Shown piece by piece: positions 6,690 through 11,424 of a stretch of 64,000 bases of DNA. Both the position numbers and the translations under genes were made by a program. Each line of letters opens with the position of its first letter. The first letter of the stretch is position 1. Under the pieces are notes generated by a model. The model had not been told where the DNA came from, made no database searches, and saw only the letters and a program-made list of their open reading frames with translations. This stretch comes from Halobacteriovorax sp. GB3 (lineage in GTDB: Bacteria; Bdellovibrionota; Bacteriovoracia; Bacteriovoracales; Bacteriovoracaceae). The DNA is taken from positions 1,302,001-1,366,000 of the forward strand of contig NZ_JAQSLN010000003.1 of assembly GCF_028649655.1 (NCBI RefSeq), read 5' to 3'.

Positions 6690-6914
6690 ATGGAAGAAAA
6701 AGTAATTAAACTTGTATCAGATGCTACTAAAATCGATATTTCAAAAATCAAAGCAGAAACTAGCTTTGTTGACGATCTAAACCTAGATTCACTTGATATC
6801 GTTGAGCTAATGATGAAAATGGAAGATGAGTTTGGTGTAGAGATCCCTGAAGAAGATGCTGAAGGGCTTAAAACAGTAAACGATGTTGTTACTTACCTAG
6901 AAAAGAAACAATAA
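6690..6914 (+). CDS. acpP: Acyl carrier protein
   Basis: This is the small acidic carrier whose Ser is modified with 4'-phosphopantetheine and carries growing acyl chains. The attachment motif DSL places the modified residue at S34, inside LNLDSLD. The protein is 74 aa, with the usual acidic helix II (ELMMKMEDEFG). A strong GGAGAGAG ribosome site lies 6 bases before the ATG, which fits the need for high expression. It is the last gene before a terminator. Confidence 0.96.
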   Translation: MEEKVIKLVSDATKIDISKIKAETSFVDDLNLDSLDIVELMMKMEDEFGVEIPEEDAEGLKTVNDVVTYLEKKQ

Positions 6915-8634: not shown

Positions 8635-8683
8635 ATCGACTCCATTGTTGTAATTTCAACAAATTAACAAATAGGGAGTCGAT
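8635..8683 (-). promoter_or_regulatory. Candidate hairpin covering the protease ribosome site
   Basis: ATCGACTCC (8635-8643) and GGAGTCGAT (8675-8683) are perfect 9-base inverted repeats. A nested TTGTTG/CAACAA hairpin lies at 8645-8662. In the mRNA the 3' arm is GGAGUCGAU immediately before the UUG start, so pairing would hide both the Shine-Dalgarno GGAG and the start region. It could be a translational switch or, as DNA, an operator. Confidence 0.45.
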
Positions 8684-8740: not shown

Positions 8741-9769
8741 CTAATATCGCTTACAAAAGACCGTAGAATTCGATCCAAAAGCATAGAAATAGTCGAAGAC
8801 TTGCTTTAACCAATCGTGCAGATTTGTCCAAGAGACAAATCGATAACTATAGTCGAAGCGAGATAAATAAGATTGATCGCGAGAAATAATTCCTGATGAA
8901 CAAGATTTCATTCTCATCGATAAAAGAAAAATAGCTGAAGAGACTACCTTTAAATCAGAGATTTGATGTCTATTTTCTTTAACTAATCGAATCCCTCTCC
9001 AATAGCTTAATGTATTAACTGAATGCAACGGTAGTTGATGTAAATAGAAATAGTAATATTCTCTCTTATTAGCATCGATGCTAAAATGATTTTGATTATT
9101 TCTAAAGATATCGTCTTGAAAGTTTTCTACAATTTCAAATAGGGCATCACTGAAAAGTGGGTGGAATCGATCAATAAATGAAAAACCATAAGTATTATAA
9201 ACATCAGATGATTCGAGAAAGTTTTTAACAGTATCTAGAAATAAAGACACATCTTTAAGTCGCTCATCTTTTTTTCTAAAAAGTGAAAATGATTTCTTTT
9301 CTTTTTTATTATAAACAAATTGGTCTCTTCTTTTATCAAGAAGTTCTTTATAAGCCTTAATGAGTTCAGATTTATTTTCATAGCGATTCCCTGCATTTTT
9401 CCATACAGTATCTGCCATTTCATTGAGCTCAAGAAGCGTATCCCAATCTACGGCTTTATAGAGATAATCATTGCTCACAAAATGTGTTTCTTTTTCAAGA
9501 TTTTCCCAAGCACCTGAATGATTGAAATGATAAGTCGTCATTTGGGGATTAAGAGCTGCTGAAATTTGATTGCGATAAAGATGACCATCATCAATTAGAG
9601 ATACTAAATCAATATTTCGTTCATTCACTCTTTTAATATGTGATATTTTTTCTTCTTTTACATAATAGATATAGTCTTGAGACTCTGGAGGATCAATAAG
9701 TTCAGCTGCACACGTAAGACCTGGTGCTATCAGAACAATTGAAATAAAAAAGATGCTCAACTTTTTCAT
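8741..9769 (-). CDS. Secreted protein of unknown function
   Basis: I do not recognise the 342-aa product. It has a clear signal peptide (MKKLSIFF..., cleavage likely after TCAA near residue 22). The mature part is rich in Tyr, Asp and Ser, mostly helical in appearance, without a catalytic motif I can name. Three Cys residues in the mature part (one near the C-terminal end) could form a disulphide. A GGAG site lies 6 bases before the ATG. It follows a long leader with two nested hairpins (9785-9857), so its expression may be controlled at RNA level. It lies upstream of, and on the same strand as, the subtilisin-like gene. Confidence 0.6.
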   Translation of the reverse strand: MKKLSIFFISIVLIAPGLTCAAELIDPPESQDYIYYVKEEKISHIKRVNERNIDLVSLIDDGHLYRNQISAALNPQMTTYHFNHSGAWENLEKETHFVSNDYLYKAVDWDTLLELNEMADTVWKNAGNRYENKSELIKAYKELLDKRRDQFVYNKKEKKSFSLFRKKDERLKDVSLFLDTVKNFLESSDVYNTYGFSFIDRFHPLFSDALFEIVENFQDDIFRNNQNHFSIDANKREYYYFYLHQLPLHSVNTLSYWRGIRLVKENRHQISDLKVVSSAIFLLSMRMKSCSSGIISRDQSYLSRFDYSYRFVSWTNLHDWLKQVFDYFYAFGSNSTVFCKRY

Positions 9770-9784
9770 GAATTCTCCAAAAGT

Positions 9785-9857
9785 GAAAATAGGCTCAACA
9801 CCTGTTTAAAACTTACTCAGTTTTAAGAGGGGGGGAGTAGGTATTGAGCCTAATTTC
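9785..9857 (-). promoter_or_regulatory. Structured 5' leader of the 8741-9769 gene
   Basis: Outer arms at 9785-9802 and 9840-9857 pair at 16 of 18 positions, with TAGGCTCAA/TTGAGCCTA perfect. Inside lies a second hairpin, TTAAAACT-gagta-AGTTTTAA, plus a run of seven C in the mRNA sense. The outer stem ends ~8 bases before the GGAG. It matches no riboswitch class I can name. Confidence 0.4.
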
Positions 9858-9924
9858 ATTGTTAAGCTGCAAGACTGATTCCAATCTTTCGATGTTTTGT
9901 TGAGACTAATATAGTGGAGAATTT

Positions 9925-9961
9925 GGTCCATAAACTTAACAAACACTAACATTTATGGACC
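9925..9961. repeat. Perfect 10-bp inverted repeat
   Basis: GGTCCATAAA (9925-9934) and TTTATGGACC (9952-9961) flank a 17-base loop, about 20 bases past the stop of the ATP-grasp gene. It may be a weak terminator (no T-run follows on the minus strand) or a dyad operator upstream of the 8741-9769 gene. Confidence 0.5.
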
Positions 9962-9981
9962 GTTTTAAGAGTATAAAATTA

Positions 9982-11424
9982 CTACGATTCTTTCATTATT
10001 TCACTGATTAATGACTTATCGTTATCCAGTGACTTGAAAAGCTTCATACGAAATTGACCCTTCTTATTCATAAGAGTCTGCGCCATTTTATCAATGGCTA
10101 TAATACTTAGAACTGTTTGAATAAAGCCCTCGATCAGGTCATCAGTACCAATTCCAAGAGAGTTAAAGTCCTTTCTATCCATGAGCATTAATCGAGAAGT
10201 ATCAGAAGACCACTGGTTCTCCCCTAACTTCACAGACAAGTTTGTTCCAAGAACTTCCCAACTCGAAGAGTTTTCATTTAACTCAGGAGCAAGTGCTCCC
10301 TTAGCTCTTCTTGCGTAAATAGCACATGGATAAAATCCCTTAGGAGTTGAGTAAACCATGATTCGCAAGTCAGCGACGTAGATCTTCCCTTTTTTATTTG
10401 GAATTGTACCAATGTGATAGTACTTTCCAGCACTCGATTGAGATGACCAATTATAGTGTCCGATCAATGATTGAATAATGAACTGATCATAAGAGTGCTC
10501 TTCATTCATGAAGGCCTCTAATTCTTTTTCATTCGTAATTGTATAGACACCTTGTCCAGCGTTTGAATACGGGTTTTTAATAACAGCGTATCCACCAAAG
10601 CGCTCAATCCAAAGAGGTACTTCAACCTTACTTACATCGCGAATTGTTTCAGGCATATTGATTTTAAGTCCCGACTCATTAAGTTCAGAGTTGTAAAATT
10701 CGTAGGCCTTATTTGCGACAAGTTTATTTCTTCCACCGGCTAGGCAGACGAGAGTTGAGTTATAGATAAAAGTTTTCGTTACGACAGGAAGTCTATTCCA
10801 TGGCTTTTGTGTTACGTATCGAAAAGCAGCTCTTATAGCGACATCTTCTTCGCCATCAATTTTCACGTAGAGAACACCATCTTTAAAATAAGCGTGTTGC
10901 TCCTCATTGTTAAAGTGAGGAATGAGATAAACTTTCTCTCCAGTTAAGTCTGCAAGAGTTGCAGCATAACCAGAAACTTCCATATAGTTTTTGTCATAAA
11001 TAACAGCGAGAGCACCCTTTGGTAAGCGCTTCTTCTTTTTTAAAGCAGGTAGAAATGAGTTCTCAATAAGAAACTTATAACCTCTATGTTCATCATCATC
11101 TGTTCTTTGTGGCATAGATTTCTGGCCAGATGGACAAGAGTTCGTTTCAAGAACAACCATACTTCTATTACCCTTTTCCGTCGTTACATAGAAAAGGTCA
11201 GCTCCACCCCAATAGAAATGCTTGCTCGTATAATTAAGAATTTCTTGCAAATACTTAGGATCTACTTGAGGATTTAAATGACAATACCTTTCGATAATTC
11301 TTTTGTGATCTAAATTAAAAAAGTGACTTACCATGGCGTGCAATTGAGTATTTAATGCTTTTGGATAGAAGTGATTATCCTGCTCAAAGTCGTTTGGAGT
11401 TACAATTGATACTTCGTTTTTCAT
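9982..11424 (-). CDS. ATP-grasp fold protein, substrate unknown
   Basis: 480 aa, cytoplasmic, no signal peptide. ATP-grasp enzymes ligate a carboxylate to an amine or thiol using ATP. The features seen are a nucleotide-binding strand with Lys (YAVIKNPYSNAGQGVY, ~284-299) and its Gly-rich loop, then IIQSLIGHYNW. A following DLRIMVY strand is of the metal/phosphate-binding type. The N-terminal third has a VLETNSCPSGQKS motif. This arrangement resembles the predicted ligases of uncharacterised peptide or metabolite pathways. It lies 9 bases after the LysR gene, so the two form one operon. The product cannot be named from the sequence. Confidence 0.6.
   Translation of the reverse strand: MKNEVSIVTPNDFEQDNHFYPKALNTQLHAMVSHFFNLDHKRIIERYCHLNPQVDPKYLQEILNYTSKHFYWGGADLFYVTTEKGNRSMVVLETNSCPSGQKSMPQRTDDDEHRGYKFLIENSFLPALKKKKRLPKGALAVIYDKNYMEVSGYAATLADLTGEKVYLIPHFNNEEQHAYFKDGVLYVKIDGEEDVAIRAAFRYVTQKPWNRLPVVTKTFIYNSTLVCLAGGRNKLVANKAYEFYNSELNESGLKINMPETIRDVSKVEVPLWIERFGGYAVIKNPYSNAGQGVYTITNEKELEAFMNEEHSYDQFIIQSLIGHYNWSSQSSAGKYYHIGTIPNKKGKIYVADLRIMVYSTPKGFYPCAIYARRAKGALAPELNENSSSWEVLGTNLSVKLGENQWSSDTSRLMLMDRKDFNSLGIGTDDLIEGFIQTVLSIIAIDKMAQTLMNKKGQFRMKLFKSLDNDKSLISEIMKES

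Follow-up and report, generated by a model that had tools for sequence, protein, structure and literature searches.

The 64-kb stretch of DNA analysed here (the window), from a bacterium of the genus Bacteriovorax, contains a long hairpin between two minus-strand genes, P0002 and P0001, directly upstream of P0001, which encodes a secreted-type protein. This position raises the question of whether the hairpin is a control element of P0001 and, if so, by what means it would act. The element is read on the minus strand of its source genome (G000), the same strand as P0001, and comprises, with its surroundings, the following features.

8741..9769, minus strand: P0001, secreted-type protein, 342 aa
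9775..9778, minus strand: GGAG, likely ribosome-binding site, read from sequence
9779..9789, minus strand: U-rich 3′ flank UUUUCACUUUU, possible terminator tail, the first part of which pairs with the stem foot
9785..9857, minus strand: long-arm hairpin, whole element (fold −28.3 kcal/mol, z −7.6)
9785..9803, minus strand: 3′ outer arm
9806..9826, minus strand: inner hairpin of 8 bp with a 5-nt loop, no equivalent in the BSW11_IV counterpart
9829..9835, minus strand: C7 tract, unpaired in the minus-strand fold, 1 of 26 distinct C7+ runs in the source genome
9839..9857, minus strand: 5′ outer arm
9908..9913, minus strand: TATATT, weak candidate −10 box, read from sequence
9915..9923, minus strand: segment perfectly complementary over 9 nt to the ribosome site (9771-9779), which may act as an anti-Shine-Dalgarno if it is transcribed
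9925..9961, minus strand: 10-bp hairpin directly after P0002, without a U tail on the minus strand
9982-11424, minus strand: P0002, upstream gene, 480 aa

The outer arms form 18 pairs (17 Watson-Crick and one G-U) over 19 columns with one mismatch and enclose a loop of 35 nt. Folded as minus-strand RNA, positions 9785-9857 reach −28.3 kcal/mol compared to −9.7 ± 2.4 kcal/mol for shuffled sequences, with 0 of 200 shuffles folding as well, and the plus strand gives −25.9 kcal/mol (z −4.7). The C7 tract is predicted to be unpaired in both the minimum-free-energy (MFE) and the centroid structure of the minus strand, so that the predicted fold displays a C-rich motif in a loop, one of the criteria used for UCCC-type sRNAs. 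The 3′ arm is followed after 6 nt by GGAG and after 15 nt by the start codon (A at 9769). The paired arms, the inner 8-bp hairpin and the C-run that a preliminary description had reported are all present, as is their placement just before the ribosome site of the secreted-protein gene. This confirms the hairpin as an observation; a function is plausible.

A promoter scan by consensus upstream of P0001 reported no promoter, including at TATATT, which counts against reading the hairpin as part of a leader. If transcription starts above 9915-9923, pairing of this segment with the ribosome site could close a larger structure, and the segment is paired in the MFE structure predicted for the longest assumed leader. 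Over eight assumed 5′ ends, the ribosome site in the window has a predicted unpaired probability of 0.40 to 0.49, compared to 0.16 to 0.20 over six assumed 5′ ends upstream of the ortholog in Bacteriovorax sp. BSW11_IV.

P0001 was called secreted-type from its N-terminus, judged by eye and by a crude rule; it has no Pfam family above cut-off, and its AlphaFold model has a mean pLDDT of 50. The upstream gene, P0002, is present in 15 of 59 genomes, the source genome counted. Within 260 nt downstream of the P0002 stop codon, no C5 or G5 run was found at any of 15 loci outside the source genome (one with ~125 nt only), and the idea that the hairpin belongs to P0002 was rejected.

A general class of hairpins burying the ribosome site before secreted-type genes was rejected, as the trend was weak: the ribosome site was more than 0.9 paired in 13 of 228 secreted-type genes, called by a crude rule of our own, and in 16 of 569 other genes (Mann-Whitney p = 0.06 for pairing values). 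Individual cases were seen. The subtilase gene neighbouring P0001 (6949-8634, TTG start) has a hairpin with GGAG in its 3′ arm that abuts the start (window 8635-8683, minus strand). At L096 1930-1999 and L171 about 1400-1456, a secreted-type gene has its ribosome site buried in a hairpin that abuts the start codon; in BSW11_IV, the ortholog (38% identical) has an AAGGA site in a hairpin of other sequence, and in eight more distant relatives the hairpin is not clearly kept, L178 perhaps excepted. Hairpins of 12-13 bp that contain the ribosome site directly before a secreted-type start occur at L105 8274-8322 and near L092 13057, L118 3290 and L117 1492, the L105 protein having no relative in 38 other genomes at E 1e-8.

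Rarity of the hairpin in the source genome

The frequency of such structures was assessed in 860,040 bases of the source genome, made up of the window and 40 further stretches and covering about a quarter of the genome. C-runs are commoner in this sample than in the genome, since the stretches were chosen around C6 runs. A stem scan of the sample found 141 hairpins scoring at least 14, with 95 in coding sequence, 2 at edges and 44 elsewhere, and of the 44 non-coding hairpins listed, only two have a higher stem score than the window hairpin. Within the 141, a C or G run of at least five in the loop was found in the window hairpin only, apart from one G5 in a 45-nt loop. Upstream regions of 797 sampled genes gave the same picture: a hairpin scoring at least 12 was present in 76 of them, a C5+ run lay in the loop in one (the window's own), and a G5+ run lay in a hairpin loop in none. 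A C6 run anywhere within 150 nt upstream occurred in 7 of the 797.

Two of the 26 distinct C7+ runs in the source genome lie in stems scoring 19.9 (the window) and 20.5 (G000:C5:38882, L078), and a third lies in a stem scoring 12.3. As a control, 4000 random 7-nt windows of the sample were scored, of which 33 reached 12, 9 reached 14 and 1 reached 16. C-tracts in the loops of long stems exceed chance in this genome when these 2 of 26 C7+ runs are compared to the random windows. Shorter runs showed no clear excess, with stems scoring at least 14 holding 2 of 244 C5+ runs and 1 of 73 C6+ runs in the sample, the window's own included. That single C6+ run is the one in the window, which counts against the tract being a contact site.

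No second copy of the hairpin region was found in the source genome, the next best match having 31 bits (E 0.2). DNA matches at E up to 0.1 were found in 18 of 59 genomes, the source genome included, the foreign ones being 17-41 nt long and none spanning the hairpin; one of them, at L029, has a G6 run between short arms inside a coding frame. A repeat family or mobile element was rejected on these grounds.

The BSW11_IV ortholog and other C-tract loci

A two-sequence profile of P0001 matched 2 of 129 family genomes at E up to 1e-10, the source genome included, and the sole ortholog found outside it is that of BSW11_IV (G001), which is ~36% identical. Protein searches of genome contigs gave no match with the single sequence and one locus with the profile, and plasmids gave no match. 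Weaker relatives of P0001 comprise five paralogs in the source genome, three in BSW11_IV and one in G090, with a marginal match in G023.

The region upstream of the BSW11_IV ortholog contains a hairpin of ~20 bp with C6 in its loop (stem score 15.1; −23.6 kcal/mol for a 72-nt piece), and among 25 distinct C6 runs fetched from BSW11_IV a stem scoring at least 12 was found only at this leader. The upstream neighbour there is a different gene from P0002, the inner hairpin is missing, and the distance from hairpin to start is ~63 nt compared to 15 nt in the window. The two leaders show no sequence similarity beyond chance (87 of 400 shuffles align equally well), and stems were not lined up in the alignments A1, A4, A5 and A6 for a covariance model. 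The search for homologous leaders in relatives, proposed in the preliminary description, yielded one architectural counterpart and no alignable sequence. Shape, not sequence, seems to be kept between the two leaders, and its recurrence upstream of the sole ortholog found lends support to a function, this support being one of architecture from a single comparison, that of the window with BSW11_IV. Were the ortholog region unrelated, an equal architecture would by our estimate be expected with a chance below ~0.4% (3 of 796).

The hairpin is not a common trait of the paralog family, an idea rejected since C6 or G6 runs were absent from all nine paralog loci (five in the source genome, three in BSW11_IV, one in G090). 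Upstream folds of the five source-genome paralogs and of three L050 frames also contained no C-tract hairpin. Five secreted-protein paralogs stand in a row at L048 765-7102 (G000:C3 about 1281-1288 kb), and two of these have nearly identical stretches, ~145 nt in length, upstream of the start.

Further C-rich loci were seen in the two genomes. L078 1471-1545 (G000:C5 near 38882, minus strand) lies between two small secreted-type protein genes and contains runs of C6 and A8 together with a long hairpin that has C7 in its loop and TTTTG after it. An intergenic locus of BSW11_IV, L161 1480-1705 (G001:C4:122349-122574), has C-runs of 6, 6, 7, 5 and 6, a fold z of −5.9 and an intrinsic terminator, and from its sequence looks like a multi-C-loop small RNA. 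The terminator may belong to the neighbouring ORF, which converges on it and which we take to encode an acyl carrier protein. This ORF and the P0002 ortholog flank the locus; in the source genome, the window hairpin likewise lies between P0002 and such an ORF (6690-6914). A DNA search of 125 family genomes with the L161 locus gave no match in the source genome and a best foreign E of 4.7e-4, and a lax Rfam scan of it gave only sub-threshold matches, e.g., RsaE at 26.6 bits (E 0.018). Counted by contig strand, C6 runs in BSW11_IV number 48 forward and 157 reverse; in the source genome the counts are 7 and 23 for C7 and 72 and 89 for C6.

These loci hint at a C-rich RNA group in the genus. None of 400 shuffles aligned as well as the L161 locus and the G000:C5 locus, and 22 of 400 did so for the BSW11_IV leader and G000:C5. 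Shuffles were as good in 72 of 400 cases for the window hairpin and the L161 locus (21 of 400 on the reverse strand), in 136 of 400 for the window and G000:C5 and in 119 of 400 for the BSW11_IV leader and the L161 locus. It is doubtful that the window leader, its BSW11_IV counterpart, G000:C5:38882 and the multi-loop BSW11_IV locus belong to an undescribed Bacteriovorax class of C-tract hairpin RNAs, kept in shape rather than sequence and acting on G-rich ribosome sites through an exposed C6-C7 loop. Such a class would mean that a Gram-negative predator uses riboregulation of the UCCC type, and some of its members would be leaders of genes for secreted proteins.

Readings of the hairpin

Computation shows the fold, how rare it is and a like architecture upstream of the single ortholog found; transcription of the region, exposure of the tract in vivo, a partner and an effect on expression are inferred. 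The reading we favour, to which we assign a probability of about 0.4, is that the hairpin is transcribed as part of a leader or short RNA, in which the exposed C-tract provides a contact site and thereby controls P0001 output. A minus-strand RNA between P0002 and P0001 would most likely be the 5′ leader of P0001, perhaps also released as a short RNA, and the long hairpin would hold the C7 tract single-stranded. As the working part, the tract would pair with a G-rich RNA, e.g., a Shine-Dalgarno region, or bind a protein, and this contact would set the output of the P0001 gene after transcription has begun. We favour such a contact site because the C-tract and long stem are common to both leaders and C-rich-loop RNAs contact G-rich sites.

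Loop matches near the genes' own ribosome sites are not remarkable. The BSW11_IV loop AAUCCC matches GGGAUU just before the ortholog start with six pairs, the window loop has four matches only to GGAG, and the longest loop-gene matches, 7 nt in BSW11_IV and 6 nt in the window, both lie away from the ribosome site. Loop complementarity to sampled ribosome sites reached at least 8 contiguous matches in 9 of 797 genes, where 20 shuffled loops gave 6.7 such genes on average and up to 24, and four such C-rich loops against the 797 ribosome sites all fell within the shuffled-loop range. The C-tract would be a contact site that is easy to test. Little seems to have been described of post-transcriptional control in Bacteriovorax, a full-text search with 'small RNA' having found the terms in no title or abstract of the papers listed, and a leader kept by architecture rather than sequence would escape ordinary homology searches.

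The main rival to a contact site, and a serious one although we consider it rather unlikely, is an intrinsic terminator or attenuator that ends part of the transcripts short of P0001, whether they come from P0002 or start at a leader promoter. P0002 lies upstream on the same strand as a source of transcripts for attenuation, and the 3′ flank has a T score of 3.53 in the window and 2.99 in BSW11_IV, whereas short-loop hairpins (better strand) have a median of 1.95 and reach 3.15 at the 90th percentile; the two flank scores are reached by 1.0% and 3.5%, respectively, of the 797 upstream regions at the same distance from the start. The flank scores depend on where the stem is taken to end, being 0.26 (window) and 1.77 (BSW11_IV) with the longest stem, and the U tract is both interrupted and partly paired. 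The 35-nt loop is also large for a terminator, a clear U run is absent from the BSW11_IV leader, and with a full terminator hardly any space would be left for a P0001 promoter. A terminator scan found none, its loops being limited to 3-8 nt, a range in which the window hairpin is not reportable.

It is unlikely that the hairpin is without function, a long palindrome arisen by chance with a coincidental hairpin in BSW11_IV. The z of −7.6 speaks against chance, as does the finding of a hairpin with a C-tract before both orthologs and in 0 of 796 other sampled upstream regions, even though there are only two sequences, without alignable similarity and with neither inner hairpin nor spacing kept, and long hairpins as such are not rare, the 860-kb sample containing 141, of which 95 fall in coding sequence. 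An inverted repeat acting in DNA, as an operator bound by a regulator rather than as an RNA element, would account for long arms that mismatch at few positions and lie 35 nt from each other within an intergenic region of promoter size. It is improbable given that the arm sequences differ in the ortholog while the C-tract is kept and that the arms have no second copy in the source genome. An upstream ORF whose proline codons give rise to the C-tract, with ribosome stalling controlling the gene, is highly improbable. The candidate has 17 codons from 9859, or 41 from the ATG at 9931, and ends 36 nt before the gene (window 9806-9859, minus strand), and in each of the two genomes an in-frame ORF crosses the C-tract, the two having S-I-P in common and SKF at their ends. 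These residues were picked after the fact, however, 114 of 500 shuffles align as well as the leader DNA does, and by eye neither ORF has a clear ribosome site; the upstream ORF was rejected as the shared residues were not significant.

Comparison with known RNA classes

The hairpin had been described as a structured leader without a known class, and the membership test supports this. Using Rfam 15 with its curated gathering scores, the 64-kb window gave one match, a tRNA, and none at the hairpin, and a lax scan of 9700-10050 up to E 10 gave 9 matches, all with E above 2 and below the gathering score. A thermosensor, one of the functions suggested earlier, is unlikely because the ribosome site, GGAG, lies outside the stem; the hairpin also still folds at −23.3 kcal/mol at 45 °C. 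The suggestion of a riboswitch-like element fared no better, as the two ortholog leaders align no better than shuffles (87 of 400, for two sequences) and nothing at the window hairpin supports a ligand pocket. A protein- or RNA-binding site is possible. The like shape before both orthologous genes hints at a control element that would act through a partner, and not at a known riboswitch. A regulatory RNA of another bacterial predator, the merRNA of Bdellovibrio, is described as a c-di-GMP riboswitch RNA (PMC3627812); merRNA holds a riboswitch, whereas the window matches no riboswitch family.

The BSW11_IV leader matched the whole rli31 model (RF01465) with 35.8 bits (E 1.2e-4), falling far short of the gathering score of 80, in an alignment covering the long stem and C-rich loop, and no rli31 match was listed at the window's own hairpin in the lax scan of 9700-10050. 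In Listeria, the 5′ part of Rli31 is described as a long hairpin whose C-rich apical loop is complementary to the spoVG 5′-UTR, and SpoVG is reported to bind Rli31 in vitro (PMC4959528). The BSW11_IV leader resembles Rli31 in its long, imperfect hairpin and in the C-rich loop at the apex, although Rli31 is a free sRNA with its own terminator, unlike the leader proposed here. SpoVG (PF04026) was found in neither the source genome nor BSW11_IV and, among 14 control genomes, only in Bacillus subtilis. The likeness may indicate a possible way of working, not membership.

In LhrC and other UCCC-motif sRNAs, C-rich loop motifs, one of them in the terminator loop, are described as contacting the G-rich ribosome site (PMC4132741). 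LhrC is a multicopy sRNA, whereas here the tract is C6-C7, single-copy and without target complementarity above shuffles. RepG of Helicobacter pylori, for which the C/U-rich loop of the terminator hairpin is described as the pairing site and a length-variable G-repeat in a leader as the target (PMC8295292), is like the proposed C-tract in pairing through a hairpin loop, while its G-repeat target has no known counterpart here. By analogy, Rli31, LhrC and RepG may serve as models for how an exposed C-tract before P0001 would work.
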